Shown one piece after another: positions 53,203-64,000 of a DNA stretch of 64,000 nucleotides. Each line of letters begins with the position of its first letter. Position 1 is the first letter of the stretch. The stretch comes from Rhizobium etli 8C-3 (GTDB taxonomy: Bacteria; Pseudomonadota; Alphaproteobacteria; Rhizobiales; Rhizobiaceae): positions 313,001 through 377,000 of the forward strand of contig NZ_CP017241.1 in assembly GCF_001908375.1 (NCBI RefSeq). Reading direction: 5' to 3'. Under the pieces are notes generated by a model. It worked only from the letters and a program-made list of their open reading frames with translations, had not been told where the DNA came from and ran no database searches. The position numbers and the translations under genes were made by a program.

Positions 53203-54400
53203 AGCGTTCTGCGATCAGGGCTGCCAGCTTCTCGGCAACCTCTTCCTTGCCGAGATCGGGCCATTGCTCGACGCCGCTTCGGCTGATCAGTTTCACGCTG
53301 TTGCGCGTGCCGCCCATGATGCCAGTCGCCGGCGAGACGTCATTCGCAACGATCAGGTCGGCGCCCTTGCGCTCGAGCTTCGCCTTGGCGTTATTTTCGA
53401 CGTCCTGCGTCTCGGCCGCAAAGCCGATCACCAGCGTCGGCCGCATCGTGTGGTGGCCGACGGCCTTCAAGATGTCAGGGTTTTCGGTCAGCGCCAGCGT
53501 CGGAATGGATTCGCCTGGATGCTTCTTGATCTTCTGATCGGCGGCAGAAGCCACGCGCCAGTCGGCCACGGCTGCCACCATGACGGCGATATCGGCCGGC
53601 AGCGCAGCGAGCACTGCATCGCGCATTTCTTCGGCGCGTTCGACATGGATGGTTTTGACGCCGACGGGATCGGCGATTGCCACCGGACCGGAGATGAGTG
53701 TGACGTCGGCGCCGAGCCTGGCAAGTGCTGCGGCAATCGCGTGTCCCTGCCTGCCGGAAGAACGATTGGCGATGTAGCGGACGGGATCGATCGGTTCGTG
53801 GGTCGGTCCCGAGGTCAAGACCGCCTTGCGTCCGGTAAGCGGCTTCGGCCCGTCGTCAAGCAGCGCTTCTGCAGCGGCAACGATCTCCAGCGGTTCAGCC
53901 ATGCGGCCGATGCCTGCCTCCTTGCTCTCCGCCATCTCGCCTGTCATCGGCCCGACAAAATGAATGCCGTCACCTTTCAGGATGTCGAAATTCCGTTTCG
54001 TCGCCGCCTTCGACCACATCTTCGGGTTCATCGCCGGCGCGGCAAGAACCGGTCTGTCCGTCGCGAGCAAAACGGTCGAGGCCAGGTCGTCGGCGAAACC
54101 GTTTGCCATCTTGGCCATCAGATCGGCCGTTGCCGGCGCGATCAGAACGAGGTCGCAGTCGCGAGCAAGCCGGATATGGCCCACATCCTGTTCGTCCTGC
54201 CGCGAAAAGAGATCGGTGAAGACGTGGTCTGCGGCAAGAGCGCCGACGGCAAGCGGCGTGACGAATTCCTGCGCGCCCTTCGTCATCACCGGACGCACCG
54301 AAGCACCGCAATCGCGCAGGCGCCGGATCAGGTCGAGGCTCTTGTAGGCCGCGATGCCGCCGGAAATGATGAGCAGGATGCGTTTGCCGCTGAGAGCCAT
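53189..54400 (-). CDS. coaBC: Bifunctional phosphopantothenoylcysteine decarboxylase / phosphopantothenate-cysteine ligase
   Basis: A 403-residue fusion making 4'-phosphopantetheine in coenzyme A synthesis. The N-terminal CoaC flavin domain has ISGGIAAYKSLDLIRRL, APATADLMAKMANGFADDL and PAMNPKMW, including the substrate-clamp motif. The C-terminal CoaB part has LTSGPTHEPIDPVRYIANRSSGRQG, AAVADWRV, KIKKHPG and IGFAAET. The ATG at 54400 starts the homologous MALSGKRILLI. It converges on the amidotransferase gene. Confidence 0.97.
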   Translation of the reverse strand: MALSGKRILLIISGGIAAYKSLDLIRRLRDCGASVRPVMTKGAQEFVTPLAVGALAADHVFTDLFSRQDEQDVGHIRLARDCDLVLIAPATADLMAKMANGFADDLASTVLLATDRPVLAAPAMNPKMWSKAATKRNFDILKGDGIHFVGPMTGEMAESKEAGIGRMAEPLEIVAAAEALLDDGPKPLTGRKAVLTSGPTHEPIDPVRYIANRSSGRQGHAIAAALARLGADVTLISGPVAIADPVGVKTIHVERAEEMRDAVLAALPADIAVMVAAVADWRVASAADQKIKKHPGESIPTLALTENPDILKAVGHHTMRPTLVIGFAAETQDVENNAKAKLERKGADLIVANDVSPATGIMGGTRNSVKLISRSGVEQWPDLGKEEVAEKLAALIAERFRQG

Positions 54401-54607
54401 GGGCCTTCTATCCGTTGCCTTTGTGACTGCTAGCGACCCTAAGCCTTTGGCGGATAACATGCAATCACCACGGCGTCCCCAAGCTCACTGACATTGGGAG
54501 TGAAGATCGCGATCGCAAGCCATGCGCCTGCAAGGGCCGTCATAATCGACCGGAGAAGGCGCTTCGGAAACGATCGAGAATTCCAGCAACCGATGCCGCC
54601 GCCGATC

Positions 54608-54724
54608 TGCATTGACGCGGACATTGCGCGGCCCGAATTCGGCGGCAAGAGCCTGCGTCAGGCCGACCAGGCCGGATTTGCTGGCGGCATAGGCGGCGAC
54701 GCCCGGGAAAGCGAAACTGAAGCC
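54608..54724 (-). pseudogene. Fragment of a short-chain dehydrogenase gene
   Basis: Thirty-nine residues read FPGVAAYAASKSGLVGLTQ, then ALAAEFGPRNVRVNA. This is the TyrXXXLys active-site helix and following strand of a classical SDR (expected about 250 residues). Both ends break off, into unrelated sequence after VRVNA and before GFSFA. It is a decayed remnant. Confidence 0.75.
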
Positions 54725-54731
54725 AGCAGGT

Positions 54732-54900
54732 CCTTCAATCCGCGAAGGCAAGCTCGTCGGGATTGATGTCGGCTCCAGCCCCGAAGCCGAGTTCATCTAC
54801 GTGGCGCATCCGCAAGGCCGCAATCCTTCCGCAAAACTCCGCGCCTTAGCCGATCACCTGAAGGAAACCCTCAGTGATCCGCCTTACTGGGATCGTGCAG
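54732..54900 (+). pseudogene. Fragment of the 3' end of a LysR-family gene
   Basis: The plus-strand frame reads IREGKLVGIDVGSSPEAEF, then IYVAHPQGRNPSAKLRALADH and ETLSDPPYWD. That is the C-terminal tail of LTTRs (arm with tyrosine, hydrophilic ARG-like motif, final PYWD). The preceding 240 residues are absent. It abuts the SDR fragment within 8 bp in the opposite orientation, marking a deletion or rearrangement junction. Confidence 0.7.
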
Positions 54901-54907
54901 GCCTGGG

Positions 54908-55780
54908 TCAAAGCAGGCTCATCAGATTTTCGGTCACCGGCGAGCGCTGCGTCTTCAGCACCGCGAGCGCCAGCCGCGCGACCGCAGGCGGTCCGTCGAT
55001 CGGCCGGTAGGCGACCCCATCGAGCCTTATCTGTGCGATCGATGCGGGAACGATCGACACTCCAAGCTCTGCCGCAACCAGATTGACGACAGAGGAAATC
55101 TGCGGTGCTTCCTGTGCGACCGTCAGTTCGAAACCCGCCTGCCGGCACGCGAGCACGACATCGTCGAAGAGGCTGAGGCCGACCAGCCGCGGAAAGAGAA
55201 TGAACGGCTCGTTTGACAGCAGTGAAAGGGCCAGCCGCTCGTATTTCGCCAGCGGGTGGTTTGCTGGCAGGGCGACCACCATCGGCTCGTCGCCGAGGCG
55301 TTTCAGGCGCACGCCCGGCGGATCGTCCAGGCTCGGCCGCATGAAGGTTGCATCCAGTTCGCCGCGATGGAGTTTCTCCATCAGGGCCAACGTGTTCAAT
55401 TCCGTCAGAGACAGCCGTACTTCCGGCCACTCTGCTCGAAACCGCCTGATCGTCGCGCTGACAACCGGATTGAACGCGGAAGAAGCCGTAAAGCCGAGCG
55501 CCAGCTTGCCCGTCTCGCCGCGATTGGCACGCTGCGCGGCAAGCCTTGCCTTCTCGGCAGAGAGAAGTGAGGCCTTGGCTTCGCCGAAAAACGCCTCGCC
55601 CGCCGCCGTCAATTCCGCGCCATGCGGCACGCGGTGAAACAAAGCCGCGCCGATTTCCTTTTCGAGATCGCGGATCTGCTGGCTGAGCGGCGGCTGGCCG
55701 ATACCGAGTTTCGCCGCGGCCCGCGTAAAATTGCCTTCTTCTGCGACCGCCAGAAAATAGCGGATATGCCGAAGCTCCAT
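54908..55780 (-). CDS. LysR-family transcriptional regulator
   Basis: A 290-residue LTTR. The helix-turn-helix is LRHIRYFLAVAEEGNFTRAAAKLGIGQPPLSQQIRDLEKEIG, the standard BenM/CatM-like opening. The effector domain has LNTLALMEKLHRGELDATFMRP. It is divergent from an MFS transporter gene 91 bp away, its probable target. The inducer is unknown, but the subgroup often responds to aromatic or small carboxylate compounds. Confidence 0.94.
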   Translation of the reverse strand: MELRHIRYFLAVAEEGNFTRAAAKLGIGQPPLSQQIRDLEKEIGAALFHRVPHGAELTAAGEAFFGEAKASLLSAEKARLAAQRANRGETGKLALGFTASSAFNPVVSATIRRFRAEWPEVRLSLTELNTLALMEKLHRGELDATFMRPSLDDPPGVRLKRLGDEPMVVALPANHPLAKYERLALSLLSNEPFILFPRLVGLSLFDDVVLACRQAGFELTVAQEAPQISSVVNLVAAELGVSIVPASIAQIRLDGVAYRPIDGPPAVARLALAVLKTQRSPVTENLMSLL

Positions 55781-55852
55781 GCGCTATCTCCAAAACATAT
55801 CGAAAACATCACTTCCATATATTGGACAGCTTATGCCCTTCTGACTAGATGA

Positions 55853-57508
<1,656 letters not shown>

Positions 57509-57526
57509 GCCGCTTGGTCCCGCGTG

Positions 57527-59188
57527 CTAGCTCAACCGGATATACGGGACATCCTTCTTTTGCACTTCGTCCAGCGCTTCCTCGTATCCGGCATCCGCAT
57601 AACGCATGACGCCCAGCGCCGTGTCGTTGGTCAGCGCATGATCGAGCCGCTCGTCGGCGGCCTCGGTGCCGTCGGCAACGACAGTCACGCCGCAGCTGGT
57701 CATGTAGCCGGCATAGCCGCCTCCGCCGGAATGGACGACGACGAGGTCGGCCATCGAGGAGCAGAGCATCATCGCATCGATCAGGGGCCAGTCGGCAATC
57801 GCATCGGAGCCATCCTTCATGCGTTCGGTCATGATGTTCGGATGCGCCATAGCGCCGGCATCGAGATGGTCGCGGGAAAAGGCGACGGGACCGTTCAGGT
57901 CTGCGCTTGCGACCAATTCGTTGACGCGACGGGCAAGGGCGGTGCGTTCGCCATGGCCCAGCCAGGCGATCCGTGCCGGCAGGCCCTCGAAAGGCACGTG
58001 CTCGCGGGCAAGCCGGATCCAGTTGGTGATGATCTTGTTATCCGGAAACATTTGAAGCAGCAGATCGTCGATCCGGGCGATATCGCTCTCTTCGCCCGAC
58101 AGCGCCATCCAGCGGAAGGGACCGATAGCGCGCGCAAAGAGCGGGCGCAGATAGGCTTCGGTGAAGATCGGAATGTCGAAGGCATCGGCAACGCCGCCTT
58201 CTCTCGCTTGCGTGCGGATCAGGTTGCCGTTGTCGAAAACCTCGGAGCCCTTCTTCTGGAACTCCAGCATCGCCGTCACATGCTGGACGATCGAGGCGCG
58301 GCTTGCCGCCATCAACTGGCCCTGGCCGTCGTCGCGAAGTGCCTTGACCTGGGCAAGGCTCATGCCCTTCGGAACATAGCCGTAGACGAGATCGTGTGCC
58401 GAGGTCTGGTCCGTCACGATATCGGGCGTAATGCCGCGCCGGGCGATCTCTGGGTAGATCTCGGCCGCATTGCCGACGAGGCCGACCGACAGTGCGCGCT
58501 TTTCCTTCACGGCCCTGTCGATCATATGCAATGCAGCATCCAGATCAGGTGCGATCTCCTGCAGATAGCCGATTTGCTGGCGCTTTTTTGCCCGCTCCGG
58601 ATCGATATCGACGCAGAGGATCGCAGCTCCCGCCATACGGCCGGCAAGCGGCTGAGCCCCTCCCATGCCGCCAAGACCGGCGGTGAGCACGAAGCGGCCG
58701 GAGAGGTCGCCGCCGAAACGCCGCTCGGCAATGCGCATGAAGATTTCGTACGTTCCCTGGATGACGCCCTGGCTGCCGATATACTGCCAGGCGCCTGCCG
58801 TCAGCCCGCCCCAGCAGATCAGCCCCTTGCGCTGCAAATCGTAGAAGACTTCAGCCTTGGCCCACTGTCCGACGATATTGCAGTTCGCCATGATGACGAG
58901 CGGTGCCTTCGTGTGAGTCTTGATGAGGCCGATCGGCTTTCCCGACTGGATCAGCAGCGTCTGGTCCTCTTCCATCTCGGTCAGCGCCTTGACGATGCCC
59001 TTGTGCGCCGCCCAGTTGCGCGCCGCCTTGCCGAGCGCGGCATAGACGACGAGATTGTCCGGATCTTCGCCGACGGCAAGCACGTTTTCGAGGAGGCGCA
59101 GCAGCGCTTCTTGCCGCCACCCCTTGGCACGCAACTGCGGCCCGCCGGGAATTGGAAATTTTGGATGACGTGGATTGGGCTTCGGCAT
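57527..59188 (-). CDS. Urocanase-family hydratase, probable (S-methyl-)thiourocanate hydratase
   Basis: A 553-residue NAD-dependent member of the HutU family. The NAD loop TAGLGGMGGAQPLAGRMAGA, VVYAALGKAARNW, QSGKPIGLIKTH, SQGVIQGTYEIF, DIVTDQTSAHD and GPFRWMALSG are conserved. It departs from HutU at the active site: PARICW becomes PARIAW (Ala408 for the essential cysteine). The usual HHGGGVGMGFSQH is VHSGGGGYAGYMTS. With the lyase, DUF917 and hydantoinase neighbours, the likely substrate is thiourocanate or S-methyl-thiourocanate, giving a thiohydantoin propionate. Automatic annotation would call it hutU. It is last in the operon. Confidence 0.85.
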   Translation of the reverse strand: MPKPNPRHPKFPIPGGPQLRAKGWRQEALLRLLENVLAVGEDPDNLVVYAALGKAARNWAAHKGIVKALTEMEEDQTLLIQSGKPIGLIKTHTKAPLVIMANCNIVGQWAKAEVFYDLQRKGLICWGGLTAGAWQYIGSQGVIQGTYEIFMRIAERRFGGDLSGRFVLTAGLGGMGGAQPLAGRMAGAAILCVDIDPERAKKRQQIGYLQEIAPDLDAALHMIDRAVKEKRALSVGLVGNAAEIYPEIARRGITPDIVTDQTSAHDLVYGYVPKGMSLAQVKALRDDGQGQLMAASRASIVQHVTAMLEFQKKGSEVFDNGNLIRTQAREGGVADAFDIPIFTEAYLRPLFARAIGPFRWMALSGEESDIARIDDLLLQMFPDNKIITNWIRLAREHVPFEGLPARIAWLGHGERTALARRVNELVASADLNGPVAFSRDHLDAGAMAHPNIMTERMKDGSDAIADWPLIDAMMLCSSMADLVVVHSGGGGYAGYMTSCGVTVVADGTEAADERLDHALTNDTALGVMRYADAGYEEALDEVQKKDVPYIRLS

Positions 59189-59216
59189 GGGATGTCCTTC
59201 CTCAAGTCCTGTCTTG

Positions 59217-59546
59217 TTATTTCACCTGCAGCGTTTGCACGTAGGCGCGGGCGGCACCGAGCAGGCGCTTGCGCAGCGCATTTTCGCCATAGGCACGGGC
59301 ATCGGCGCGAACCCAGCCCTGCATCGCCCGTCCGCCCAAGGTCATCTGGACGACCCCTGGCAGCTCCAGCGCAAAGCCGTCATTGCTTTTGCCGAGGCGA
59401 ACGAGCATGCCATCGTCTCGCGCACCACAAAGGAGGTTGCCGTTCAACAGAAAGGCCAATCCGCCAAACATTGCCTTTTCGCTGAGACCAGGCAGGCCAG
59501 CGAGCTCTTCCCTCAGCAGTTCCTCAAGGCCGGCATCTCGCGCCAT
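59217..59546 (-). CDS. TfoX N-terminal-domain protein
   Basis: A 109-residue protein with the TfoX/Sxy N-domain fold: LEELLREELAGLPGLSEKAMFGGLAFLLNGNLLCGARDDGMLVRLGK and a C-terminal helix. In Vibrio and Haemophilus the longer TfoX regulates competence. The stand-alone N-domain proteins of alphaproteobacteria have no defined role. It starts 4 bp after the DUF917 stop and ends 28 bp before the hydratase start, so it is inside the catabolic operon. The start is the ATG at 59546. Confidence 0.85.
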   Translation of the reverse strand: MARDAGLEELLREELAGLPGLSEKAMFGGLAFLLNGNLLCGARDDGMLVRLGKSNDGFALELPGVVQMTLGGRAMQGWVRADARAYGENALRKRLLGAARAYVQTLQVK

Positions 59547-59550
59547 GGCG

Positions 59551-60648
59551 TCAGGCCCTTGCCGACAAAGCGTAGCGCGCAATCTCGATACCCATCGCTT
59601 TTTCCACGGGCGGATAAACGGTCGGATCGAGCACGCTTGCCGAAAGCGGAATGATCTCCATCGGCACATGCAGGATGAAGACATGCATGCCCTGCTTGAG
59701 CTGACCGACGCTGAGCGGCTCGCCCTGCGGCGAAAGCGTCGTGATGACTGAGGGAAAAGTCGCCAGGCGCGCTCCATCGGCGTCGTCGACGGCCATGTAT
59801 TCGTTCATCACATGCATCGTCACGGCTTTGGCGCCGGAGCCGACGACGATCGTGCCGACATCGAAGGCTTCCTTGGTATAGACGACGTCCTTCCTGAAAA
59901 TCTCGCCCTCCGCGAGGATGCTGCCGCCGGTTGTCTTGCAGACAGCATCGATGACGGCCGCTCCGCCCTTCTTTTCCGCCGCAATGATCGCTTCGCCGAG
60001 GGCAAGCGCCATCGAGATGCCGCCGAGTGCGGCATGCTCACGCACGTAGGACGCCCGCACCGGATTGCGGCAGCTGGCAATGAAGCCGCCCGATTGGTCG
60101 GACGCAGCGCGCAGGATCGGCGAAATCTTGGCGGTCGCACCCTTGACCACAAGCTCGATATATCGGTTCTGCGCGCGGTTTCCGCCGACCGCCGTCTGGA
60201 TCATCTGCTCCGGTGAGCCCGCCATGCCGATCGAGCCCATGTCGCCGGTGGGATGTGCTCTTATATCTCCGACGGCATCGACAACCTTGGTACCGAGGAT
60301 TGCCGAGGGCAGCCAGCCGTTCAGCGTCGAGGATTTGCCGTTCTGCCCGATGATAAGCCCCGACAGCCTTTCGCCGAGTTCGTCCTGCAAAAGCTGCACG
60401 GCTTTCACATAATCGATGCCCTGCATTTCCCAGGGCGTCGTGGAAGCCGGCGCTCCGATTGCCGCTGCTGTCGCGATCCAGTCGTCGTTATCCAATTCAT
60501 CGATGGAAACGAGCTCCGGCTTGCCGATGCTGACCGCAGCATATCCCAGCATCCGCCCGTGATCGGCCCAACCGCCGCCACCGGCTGCATAGACCGAGCC
60601 ACCCTTGACCGCCGCCTCGACGTCGTTCTCAACGAGTATGCGTCCCAT
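59551..60648 (-). CDS. DUF917-family protein, probable thiohydantoin desulfurase
   Basis: A 365-residue protein with the DUF917 pattern: ENDVEAAVKGGSVYAAGGGGWADHGRMLGY, AAAIGAPASTTPWEMQGIDYVKAVQLLQ, DAVGDIRAHPTGDMGSIGM and SGAKAVTMHVMNEYMAVDD. The family is, as I recall, now named after S-methyl-thiohydantoin desulfurase, which removes the sulfur at C2 of the thiohydantoin ring to give hydantoin-5-propionate. The ATG at 60648 has GGGAGG six bases upstream and overlaps the M20 gene by 20 bp, showing coupling. The catalytic assignment rests on family and context. Confidence 0.8.
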   Translation of the reverse strand: MGRILVENDVEAAVKGGSVYAAGGGGWADHGRMLGYAAVSIGKPELVSIDELDNDDWIATAAAIGAPASTTPWEMQGIDYVKAVQLLQDELGERLSGLIIGQNGKSSTLNGWLPSAILGTKVVDAVGDIRAHPTGDMGSIGMAGSPEQMIQTAVGGNRAQNRYIELVVKGATAKISPILRAASDQSGGFIASCRNPVRASYVREHAALGGISMALALGEAIIAAEKKGGAAVIDAVCKTTGGSILAEGEIFRKDVVYTKEAFDVGTIVVGSGAKAVTMHVMNEYMAVDDADGARLATFPSVITTLSPQGEPLSVGQLKQGMHVFILHVPMEIIPLSASVLDPTVYPPVEKAMGIEIARYALSARA

Positions 60649-61909
60649 CCAAAGCCTCCCTATCCAGCGTCCTGTCCATCTCGCGCACAGCCTCGAAAAG
60701 CACGGCAGCGCCGAGTGCGATGTCGTCATTTTCTGCCCATTCGTCGGCCGAGTGGCTGCGTCCTTCCTTGCATGGTACGAAGATCATCGCGGCCGGCGCG
60801 ACCTTCGCGATCCAGGCCGTATCGTGTCCTGCGCCCGACGCCATGCGCCGATGTCTGGCGCCGACCGTTTCACAGGCGTTTTCGAGCGTCTTCAGCAGGC
60901 CGGGATTACCGGGCGTCGGATAGTTGTCGGAGACGCGACTGGGCGAATTGATCGTGACGCCGTGGGCGATCGCAAGCTTGACGACATGCGCATCGAGCCA
61001 TCTGCAGAAGTCTTCCATGTCGCTGCGAATTTCCGCACGCCCGTCGATGAGCAGAACCACCTTGGAAGGCACGACGTTGGCCGCATTCGGCTCGATGCGG
61101 AATTCCCCGACGGTTGCGGCGAAATGACCCGGCGTCTTCGCCCGTTCGGCTGCCGCATTGCGGATATCGAGCACCAGTTGCGAGGCTGCCACCAGCGCAT
61201 CCGCGCGGGCATCCATCGGCGTCGTACCGGCATGGTCGGCCCGACCTTCGACAGTGACCTCGATCCGGGTGATGCCCGCAATTGCCGTCACGATGCCGAT
61301 ATCCTTCTTCTCGTTCTCAAGCACCGGCCCTTGCTCGATATGCAGCTCAAGGAAGCCTTTGATGTCGGGGCGCCGCTGCGCGAGAAGCGTTGCCGGATCG
61401 CCGCCGACACAAAGGATGCCTTGTGCCAGATCGCGCTCGCCGCTCGTGCGCGAAAGCCAGGCTTCGGGAAGTTGACCGGTCATGCCGCGGCTGCCGACGC
61501 ATGAAACGCCGAAGATGCTGACCTCTTCCGCGAGGAAATCGACGATTTCCAGGTCATGCTGCAGTGTGATTGCCTGGTCCTTGAGGGCGCGCGCGACTTC
61601 CAGCGCCGCGATCACACCGGCGATACCGTCAAAGCGTCCGCCGTCCGGCACCGTATCGGAATGCGAGCCGACCATAATCGTTCCAAGACCCGGTTTCGTC
61701 CCTGCACGGCGTCCGATCAGATTGCCGGCGGCATCGATCCGCGTCTCCAGCCCGGCCATTTTCATGCGCGCTTCGATATAGGCGCGGCCTTCGAGAAAGA
61801 GCGGCGAAAAAGCCCGGCGTGTCCATGGATGACCAGGCTCGGTGACCTTCGCCAGCGCATCGATATCCTCGGCAATACGATCGACGTTGACGGGCAGATT
61901 GCGGTTCAT
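60629..61909 (-). CDS. M20-family N-carbamoyl-amino-acid hydrolase (AllC/HyuC-like)
   Basis: A 426-residue di-metal amidohydrolase. Metal ligands are His83 in VGSHSDTVPDGGRFDG, the aspartate of that motif, Glu128/Glu129 in FLAEEVSIFG, a histidine in LELHIEQGP and the C-terminal SHSADEW. HAGTTPMDAR binds the substrate carboxylate. In the proposed pathway it would hydrolyse N-carbamoyl-L-glutamate to glutamate, ammonia and CO2. Allantoate amidohydrolase or beta-ureidopropionase are alternatives by family. It starts at the ATG at 61909, overlapping the amidohydrolase stop by 4 bp. Confidence 0.9.
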   Translation of the reverse strand: MNRNLPVNVDRIAEDIDALAKVTEPGHPWTRRAFSPLFLEGRAYIEARMKMAGLETRIDAAGNLIGRRAGTKPGLGTIMVGSHSDTVPDGGRFDGIAGVIAALEVARALKDQAITLQHDLEIVDFLAEEVSIFGVSCVGSRGMTGQLPEAWLSRTSGERDLAQGILCVGGDPATLLAQRRPDIKGFLELHIEQGPVLENEKKDIGIVTAIAGITRIEVTVEGRADHAGTTPMDARADALVAASQLVLDIRNAAAERAKTPGHFAATVGEFRIEPNAANVVPSKVVLLIDGRAEIRSDMEDFCRWLDAHVVKLAIAHGVTINSPSRVSDNYPTPGNPGLLKTLENACETVGARHRRMASGAGHDTAWIAKVAPAAMIFVPCKEGRSHSADEWAENDDIALGAAVLFEAVREMDRTLDREALDGTHTR

Positions 61910-63288
61910 GCAGCTTCTCCGGAAATGATCTGACGCGGCAAGGGGCGGACGAATTTTCCGCTGCCGGGCTTTGCAAGCACCTTCGTGCCATCGGTTATCT
62001 GGCTGCCGCGCAGATATGCCGCTAAAATCGTCCATGGCAGACGGATGCCGTTATAGGGGCTCCAGCCGACGACATTGTTGCCGCTGGCGGCAGCATCATA
62101 GACGGTTTCGCGCGGCTCGAGCACGACGATGTCGGCATCCTTGCCGGGCGTCAGCGCCCCCTTGATGTGGTCGAGGCGAAAATGTTTCGCCGGATTTTCC
62201 GCCATCAGCCTCGCAGCCCAGGTGAGCGGGATGCCTCGTTCGAGCGCTCCCTTGACGAACAACGGCACCATGACCTCGAGCCCGGGCACGCCGGAGGCAT
62301 TTGCCAGCATGTCCGCATTGGTCTTGCGGTTTTCCGACCAGCTCACATGATCGGTCGAAACCAGCCAGACGTTGCCTTCCGCCACTTTCCGCCACAGCGT
62401 TTCCACCTCGGCGCGCGGCCGGACCGGTGGATTGATCTTTGCTTTGCCGCCGAGGCGCCGCACATCGTTTTCCTCGTCGAGCGTCAGGTAGTGAATGCAA
62501 CATTCGACGGTCGCATCGAACCCGTCGCGGCGATAGGCGCGGGCGATGTCGTAGCCGCGGCCGAGCGAGCAGTGCACGACATGCGCGGGGCAGCCCGTAT
62601 GGGCACCGGTCTCGAAGATCGTGTGCATGGCAAGCAGCTCTGTGATCGGCGGACGCGAGAGACCGTGGGCGCGCCAGTCCGTCACGCCGATTTTCCTGAC
62701 CTTCTCCATGTAGGTGCGCACTGCCTCGTCGTCTTCGTTGTGGACACCGGCAGTCAGCCCGGTCGGCGTGATGGCCGCGAAGCAGTCGTCGAGAAGGGCG
62801 GGGGGGATGCGCGGGAAACGCTTCGCATCGGTCCCGAAGGTCGAGAATTTGAAGGCGGCAACGCCGGCATCCGCCATTTCGCGGATCCGCGCCGCGCCTT
62901 CTTCGGGATCGACCGTGCCGTAGAGCGCGAAATCGACTCGCGCCTGAGGGCTCGCGTGATCGATCTTCTTCTTCACCGCGTCGGCCGAGCAGACGAGGTT
63001 GCCTTCGTCATAGGGCATGTCGACGATCGTCGTCACGCCGCCAGCTGCCGCCGAACGTGTCGACCAGATGAAGTCCTCCTGATCCTTCTGGGAGAGCGAA
63101 TGGACTTGCGCATCGATCGCACCGGGCAGGATCAGCGCCTTGCCGAGCAGATGCCGCTCCCTGGCCGCAGGCGGCACGCCGATGCCGACCTCTGCGATCT
63201 TGCCATTGCGGGCTGCAACATAACCCCCTTCGAGGATCCGCTCCGGGAGCACGACGGTGCCCTGCAAAACAAGGTCGAAATCAGCCAT
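61906..63288 (-). CDS. Hydantoinase/dihydropyrimidinase-like cyclic amidohydrolase
   Basis: A 460-residue TIM-barrel amidohydrolase. The first metal motif reads GAIDAQVHS, so one histidine of the usual HxH is Gln61 with His63 kept. The carbamylated lysine is Lys147 in AFKFSTFG, and further ligands are His183 (GVHNED), His239 (VVHCSLGRGYD) and Asp313 (STDHVSW). It should open a five-membered cyclic amide, here hydantoin-5-propionate to N-carbamoylglutamate. Allantoin or dihydropyrimidine are alternatives. The ATG at 63288 has GGAGG six bases upstream. It overlaps the next gene by 4 bp. Confidence 0.88.
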   Translation of the reverse strand: MADFDLVLQGTVVLPERILEGGYVAARNGKIAEVGIGVPPAARERHLLGKALILPGAIDAQVHSLSQKDQEDFIWSTRSAAAGGVTTIVDMPYDEGNLVCSADAVKKKIDHASPQARVDFALYGTVDPEEGAARIREMADAGVAAFKFSTFGTDAKRFPRIPPALLDDCFAAITPTGLTAGVHNEDDEAVRTYMEKVRKIGVTDWRAHGLSRPPITELLAMHTIFETGAHTGCPAHVVHCSLGRGYDIARAYRRDGFDATVECCIHYLTLDEENDVRRLGGKAKINPPVRPRAEVETLWRKVAEGNVWLVSTDHVSWSENRKTNADMLANASGVPGLEVMVPLFVKGALERGIPLTWAARLMAENPAKHFRLDHIKGALTPGKDADIVVLEPRETVYDAAASGNNVVGWSPYNGIRLPWTILAAYLRGSQITDGTKVLAKPGSGKFVRPLPRQIISGEAA

Positions 63289-63316
63289 GCTGTTCCTCCG
63301 TATCCGGTTCAAGAGC

Positions 63317-64000
63317 TCAGATGACGAGGGCGTCCTGCGTCAGCCTCCGTTCGATTCGCTCGAGCGAGCCGAGCGCGAAGAAGTCGTCGAATGAGGCGAT
63401 CGGCACCTGCTCGATCAGCTTCGAAGCGAATTCGTCGGATCCGAGCTCTTCTTCGATTGCTTCGACCTCGGCCGAAAGCGGCCGGTCCACGGTGTAGAAA
63501 TCGGCGTGCTTGCGCACGACATCGTAGATCATGCCCGCGACGCCTTCAGGCCGGTCACCGAGAATATCGGCCGCCTGTGCTGCCAGCAGCGCCTCGAGCG
63601 CAGCCATACGCTTCAGCGCCTGCATCTGCCGCTCGAAGCGCTCTATGACCAGCGGCAGGAAAGCGGCTTCGTCCTCGAGCCCCGCCGCAACCACCAGCGA
63701 CTGGGCCGATACCGGGTTGGACATGGAAAGCACGCGTGAAAAGATCTCGCCGGCGAGCTTGATGATCGGGCCGAAACCCGTTGCGATTCGGCCCGGCGGC
63801 ACGAGGTTGACCGGCAGGTCTCGCCGCTGCCCGTTGCCGAGCAGGACACAGCGGTTGAAGGCGTTGCGCGCTGCATGCGCCATGCACAATGCCGCCGATT
63901 CCAGCAGGATCGTCACATCGAGGGGCAGCGAACCGCCCGACGTCATCACCCGGCCCTCGACGACGACCGGGTTGTCGTCAGAGCGGCCGGTGGCAGCAAG
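63317..64000 (-). CDS. Histidine-ammonia-lyase-family lyase, C-terminal part (possible ergothionase)
   Basis: The frame is open to the window edge, and its first visible residues (ATGRSDDNPVVVEGRV) contain the SxDNP signature of the aromatic amino-acid lyase family. It continues MTSGGSLPLDVTILLESAALCMAHAARNAFNR. The last 130 residues differ clearly from HutH, ending AIEEELGSDEF. The MIO-forming Ala-Ser-Gly would lie outside the window, so the type cannot be tested. Context with a thiourocanate-type hydratase suggests an ergothionase, a trimethylamine-eliminating family member. It begins the visible operon, 28 bp before the amidohydrolase start. Confidence 0.85.
   Translation of the reverse strand, partial: LAATGRSDDNPVVVEGRVMTSGGSLPLDVTILLESAALCMAHAARNAFNRCVLLGNGQRRDLPVNLVPPGRIATGFGPIIKLAGEIFSRVLSMSNPVSAQSLVVAAGLEDEAAFLPLVIERFERQMQALKRMAALEALLAAQAADILGDRPEGVAGMIYDVVRKHADFYTVDRPLSAEVEAIEEELGSDEFASKLIEQVPIASFDDFFALGSLERIERRLTQDALVI

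Follow-up and report, generated by a model that had tools for sequence, protein, structure and literature searches.

A predicted chromosomal operon for ergothioneine breakdown in Rhizobium, with a TfoX_N gene among its enzymes

Ergothioneine is a fungal antioxidant, and a five-step bacterial route for its catabolism was reportedly described by Beliaeva, Leisinger and Seebeck in 2021, in ACS Chem Biol 16:397. The ergothionase of Treponema denticola is represented in the PDB by entry 6s7j, which is said to be the work of Maurer in 2019. Here we examined a cluster of six genes at the end of a 64,000-nucleotide stretch of the Rhizobium etli 8C-3 genome, hereafter the window (G000:C1:313001-377000; the genome comprises 7.3 Mb on four contigs, of which C1 holds the window). 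A first-pass annotation of this DNA had read the cluster as a candidate operon for the breakdown of (S-methyl-)ergothioneine to glutamate. On sequence evidence, we consider it very probable that the cluster represents a chromosomal operon for ergothioneine catabolism (ert operon) of the unmethylated branch, with the complete set of genes predicted to take ergothioneine to glutamate. Gene content, gene order, family membership, loss of the triad that forms 4-methylideneimidazol-5-one (MIO) and conservation were read directly from the loci; the individual reactions, the substrate, co-transcription and the ligand of an importer we infer from the curated families, from homologues of solved structure and from the known chemistry.

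We compared the cluster proteins with curated protein families. Four of the six scored above the NCBIfam equivalog cut-offs for the unmethylated ergothioneine route (604 to 1059 bits), far beyond chance, and Pfam agreed with NCBIfam on the family level. The hydratase reached 1059 bits against the thiourocanate hydratase model (cut-off 930), the DUF917 protein 604 bits against thiohydantoin desulfurase (cut-off 440), the hydantoinase 774 bits against ErtD (cut-off 600) and the M20 protein 626 bits against ErtE (cut-off 520), with an unspecific Zn-dependent hydrolase model (NF009531) scoring higher for the last (802 bits; cut-off 486). An operon for S-methyl-ergothioneine, releasing methanethiol in place of sulfide, would draw on the same gene classes, and the S-methyl models did score well over noise (739 bits for the hydratase and 283 for the desulfurase, the latter on NF058532). 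Both of these scores, however, fell under their cut-offs (880 and 450), whereas the unmethylated models were passed, and among PDB sequences the thiourocanate hydratase of Paenibacillus sp. Soil724D2 (7ned; 817 bits) lay ahead of the S-methylthiourocanate hydratase of Variovorax (8q9u; 568 bits) by about 250 bits. The unmethylated half of the first-pass claim therefore stands and its S-methyl half does not, a methylated substrate being very unlikely in our estimate. Set against characterised relatives, as the first-pass annotation had proposed, the hydratase was also nearer to 7ned than to the urocanases, which reached at most 612 bits (1x87, the next match, 612). It has HSGGGGYAGYMTS in common with 7ned, at a place where four aligned urocanases read HHGGGVGMG instead. 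Since the structure model of the hydratase was poor (mean predicted local distance difference test score 46.7; usable matches from the central domain 135-329 only), its matches were taken for their PDB entry titles and never as structural proof. For the desulfurase, the sole PDB match was a hypothetical protein (2o3i; 41.5 bits).

We then turned to the lyase, of which the window holds the C-terminal part. The full gene (G000:C1:376317-377900, equivalent to L002:6318-7901) encodes 527 residues and has 900 bp outside the window, extending to window-equivalent position 64900. Inspection of this N-terminal region showed that the MIO-forming Ala-Ser-Gly is absent, as in the T. denticola ergothionase, which has the same one-residue gap (SIGEGDI in 6s7j); in our alignment the triad was gone and one residue missing in every ert-locus lyase found (91/91, across 97 loci). 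The best PDB sequence match of the window lyase was likewise the 6s7j ergothionase (158 bits, versus 134 for histidine ammonia-lyase, HAL). Structure comparison gave no separation of ergothionase from HAL: a model of the R. mongolense orthologue has the HAL fold, VIA returned a tie between the two and Foldseek ranked HAL first. Where such lyases are named in public records, the name is histidine or aromatic amino acid lyase. One ert-locus lyase (L133:13003-14685) is only 27% identical to the window lyase and is also MIO-less (GSVGEADIT).

These folds bear on a second alternative, a histidine utilisation (hut) operon that has diverged and has histidine and urocanate as its substrates. Both the HAL and the urocanase fold would belong in such an operon, and the hydratase is above the hutU cut-off (695 versus 375 bits). 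The lyase, however, has lost the MIO triad and matched HAL-type NCBIfam models only, all below cut-off (hutH 205 versus 539), and the desulfurase would have no use there. The genome moreover carries a hutH and hutU pair elsewhere, on another contig, with both proteins over cut-off, the hutH retaining Ala-Ser-Gly and the hutU scoring 977 bits. The first-pass annotation had also pointed out that a hut operon would carry hutI and hutF or hutG; none was seen upstream or elsewhere in the open reading frame (ORF) lists of window 54000-64000 and L002 6000-19001, no family search having been aimed at them. We regard the chance of a hut operon as very small.

Following the known chemistry of the five ergothioneine catabolic steps, the MIO-less lyase would eliminate trimethylamine from ergothioneine to give thiourocanate, which the urocanase-family hydratase would convert to 2-thiohydantoin-propionate. 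The DUF917 enzyme would exchange the sulfur of this intermediate for oxygen with release of sulfide, after which ErtD would open the hydantoin ring and ErtE would release CO2 and ammonia from the carbamoyl group, yielding L-glutamate. The main substrate could in principle be another thio- or seleno-imidazole betaine, for example selenoneine. What speaks for this is chemical likeness, the computed results not discriminating these substrates; the curated families, for their part, carry the names of sulfur compounds, and we hold such a substrate to be highly improbable. The first-pass proposal that the enzyme set fits the bacterial ergothioneine route was thus supported enzyme by enzyme, by NCBIfam cut-offs, PDB matches and MIO loss. 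The genome yielded no EgtD, a weak negative because none of the control genomes reached the EgtD cut-off either.

All six ORFs lie on the minus strand, from 57527 to past the window end (Table 1). The tight packing claimed at first pass was confirmed, with every ORF present, no gap over 28 bp, two overlaps and one 4-bp gap. With the likeliest starts, the junctions are +28 bp (lyase/hydantoinase), -4 (hydantoinase/M20), -20 (M20/DUF917), +4 (DUF917/TfoX) and +28 (TfoX/hydratase), and AAGGAG precedes the lyase ATG.

Table 1. Genes of the predicted ert operon, with positions in the 64,000-nucleotide window.
Feature	Length (aa)	Position	Strand	Basis
HAL-family lyase lacking MIO, predicted to be the first-step ergothionase (C-terminal part in window)		63317..64000	-	ORF + alignment
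ErtD-type hydantoin-5-propionate amidohydrolase (predicted)	460	61906..63288	-	NCBIfam NF058538
ErtE-type N-carbamyl-L-glutamate amidohydrolase, M20 family (predicted)	426	60629..61909	-	NCBIfam NF058540
Thiohydantoin desulfurase (predicted), DUF917 / S-Me-THD-like domains	365	59551..60648	-	NCBIfam NF058529; Pfam PF06032, PF20906
TfoX_N-domain protein, probable accessory gene	109	59217..59546	-	Pfam PF04993
Thiourocanate hydratase (predicted)	553	57527..59188	-	NCBIfam NF058530; PDB 7ned

To describe the distribution of the operon, we scanned named genomes by the desulfurase and kept the best 80 of 178 confirmed relatives as loci; two further sets comprised 17 loci and 20 order-level loci (these 37 include L149 and L249, both under the desulfurase cut-off). 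By title, the 80 named loci were 65 Rhizobium, 12 'Rhizobiales bacterium' and one each of 'Rhizobiaceae bacterium', Metarhizobium album and Brucella rhizosphaerae, and the nearest desulfurase among them came from Rhizobium mongolense (95% identical). The five enzymes occurred in the same order, lyase-ErtD-ErtE-desulfurase-(TfoX)-hydratase, in 78/80 of these loci, the other two (L071 and L132) lacking the full set since their contigs end before the lyase. All five were also present in 13/17 further and 11/20 order-level loci. Four different lyases used as probes found no match within the stretch examined in 11 loci, including L134, L137, L230, L231, L233 and L241. A desulfurase over the cut-off was found in 14 of 121 genomes of the family sample, 32 of 397 of the order sample (where each of the six listed members of the window's genus has it) and 6 of 398 of the phylum sample; two of 14 control genomes gave a match and none exceeded the cut-off.

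The ert operon is common in Rhizobium. The first-pass view that its presence in a rhizobial chromosome would merit a report was consequently not upheld, because the desulfurase is this widespread, four of the steps are already modelled by NCBI and an ergothionase has been reported for Agrobacterium radiobacter (PMC13405746). Literature searches returned nothing on this operon among the matches listed for DUF917 with thiohydantoin, for ergothioneine with desulfurase, with rhizobia, with catabolism or with Rhizobium and trimethylamine, or for hypaphorine lyase. The public record of one desulfurase orthologue, from Rhizobium leguminosarum (P0052), gives it the name OsrF; where this name comes from was not found, and the literature on osrA with Rhizobium, among the matches listed, concerns extracytoplasmic function (ECF) sigma factors.

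The small gene within the operon is a genuine TfoX_N gene, as first proposed (37.6 bits; cut-off 30.1), and is kept between desulfurase and hydratase in 70/78 named loci with all five enzymes. Its product had no NCBIfam match and no PDB match. Among the other loci holding all five enzymes, TfoX was present in 5/13 further and 2/11 order-level loci. We rejected an essential role, because the gene is absent from 9/80 named and 30/37 other loci. Matches of 62-100% identity occurred in four genomes of the family sample, all four inside ert by coordinates (next best, 50%), and matches of 69-100% in six genomes of the order sample, all of which belong to the window's genus and have the gene adjoining the desulfurase by coordinates. 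In another genus, two genomes had copies at 56-58%, located on short contigs whose first 9 kb contained no ert genes, and genus g73 gave matches of merely 35-42%, in 23/61 genomes. The genome that carries the operon also encodes another, distinct TfoX_N protein (97 bits). On a tree of 58 loci, chosen by the analyst from 114 eligible ones, TfoX presence was patchy, the gene occurring in the majority of Rhizobium loci and additionally in L135 and L138. Pairwise ratios of nonsynonymous to synonymous substitution (dN/dS) against 13 chosen Rhizobium loci, several with dS above 1 and near saturation, spanned 0.13-0.26 (TfoX), 0.08-0.11 (desulfurase) and 0.04-0.08 (hydratase), which suggests a working but less constrained gene. 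Being conserved yet patchy, the TfoX_N protein is probably an accessory of the ert operon. Sulfur handling through a conserved cysteine was considered for it and discarded, as the cysteine of the LLCGAR stretch is not invariant (leucine in L135).

Ergothioneine uptake would probably proceed through an OsmF-type betaine ATP-binding cassette (ABC) importer about 120 kb away (G000:C1:497659-500736, equivalent to L189:5660-8737). The first-pass annotation had suggested looking upstream for a betaine-type ABC transporter, and none lies directly upstream of the lyase. Linkage was examined in 41 other loci, which include L113, L127, L131 and L132 only from the 80 named loci, and an OsmF-type importer was adjacent to ert in 12/41. 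In 11 of the 12, all outside the window's genus, genes for a substrate-binding protein, a permease and an ATPase follow the lyase; in Brucella rhizosphaerae the importer genes are divergently upstream of it. Their products are 62-73%, 48-54% and 56-61% identical (binding protein, permease and ATPase, respectively) to those of the window's genome. In L246, permease and ATPase genes were at the contig edge. No importer was found beside ert in five loci of the window's genus outside the named set. The binding protein of the set in the window's genome, encoded at G000:C1:499828-500736, is over the OsmF model cut-off (487 versus 400), and the set is probably the importer of this pathway, a candidate that we put forward from homology and linkage in relatives.

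The space directly upstream of the operon is occupied by a gene that we take, from its translation, to be ubiB, which ends 95 bp from the lyase on the same strand. Beyond it are what we presume, from translations only, to be ubiE (on that strand too), mutM, an enoyl-CoA hydratase-like gene and dnaA. A LysR-type regulator, an MFS transporter and a VOC-like gene adjoin the 3' end of the operon (window 54908-57508). These three were not adopted as pathway parts; they lie beside ert in the majority of the named set of 80 but seldom in loci outside Rhizobium, which fits a shared chromosomal neighbourhood.

Further HAL-family lyases were noted in the same genome. A second MIO-less one (motif GSIGAADLAP; L188:9569-11074, equivalent to G000:C4:1905568-1907073) scored 270 bits against 6s7j and 238 against HAL. 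It neighbours a GntR/UTRA regulator, OpuAC and other betaine-type ABC genes, and CoA-transferase, SDR, MaoC and ornithine cyclodeaminase-like genes, a context that would fit a pathway in which a different amino acid betaine, possibly of plant origin, loses trimethylamine and its side chain is then degraded by CoA-linked steps. Relatives 90-95% identical were present in 45 plasmid records; among 25 plasmid matches listed, ten were annotated histidine ammonia-lyase (hutH), 14 records were unannotated and one had no annotation under the match. In the one region examined, from a Rhizobium leguminosarum plasmid, the same neighbours surrounded a lyase with the motif GSIGAADLAP. A third non-hut lyase (L190:6438-7931, equivalent to G000:C4:784437-785930) reads GSAG---YLTH in the MIO region, where an alignment error is possible, and adjoins what seem to be amino-acid ABC transporter genes and an FAD (DAO) oxidoreductase gene. 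We suggest, tentatively and as the less likely case, that ergothionase is just one member of a broader family, in which MIO-less HAL-fold enzymes act as betaine (trimethylamine) lyases, that Rhizobium has two of them (the chromosomal ert lyase and the second, plasmid-type one), and that TfoX_N is a dedicated partner of the pathway.

Since the route is known and modelled by NCBI, the operon adds a member to a known type. It has the same five enzyme classes as the described five-step route, with the hydratase at 817 bits to 7ned, and differs in the TfoX_N gene inside it and in the unlinked probable importer. From the NCBIfam ErtD, ErtE, thiohydantoin desulfurase and thiourocanate hydratase equivalogs, whose four cut-offs are passed, there is no family-level difference. 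The lyase shares with 6s7j the HAL fold, the lost MIO triad and the one-residue gap at about 25% identity, ert-locus lyases being closer to the window lyase (at least 44%, save L133 at the value given above). The ert loci of Brucella rhizosphaerae and same-order genomes hold the same enzymes, mostly in the same order, with the importer adjacent in some, as described above, and unlinked in the genome studied here. Less expected are the presence of TfoX_N, an importer split off from the operon and the occurrence of a second MIO-less lyase in the same genome. A 2026 paper describes ergothionase as confined to few bacterial genera, from BLAST hits and names, and places poorly annotated or divergent homologues outside its coverage (PMC13405746). 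Our results suggest that a full ert operon is nothing unusual for Rhizobium and has a scattered occurrence across the order. Bacteria of soil and roots may thus act as a true sink for the ergothioneine of fungi and give off trimethylamine and sulfide. Linked as they are to ert in relatives, OsmF-type importers also offer a testable candidate for ergothioneine import in Gram-negative bacteria. In Streptococcus pneumoniae the ergothioneine importer is EgtUV (PMC9732360); the OsmF-like binding protein of the genome studied here matches EgtUC entries (107-110 bits), yet is closer (346-434 bits) to solved chains of the OsmF and glycine-betaine types.
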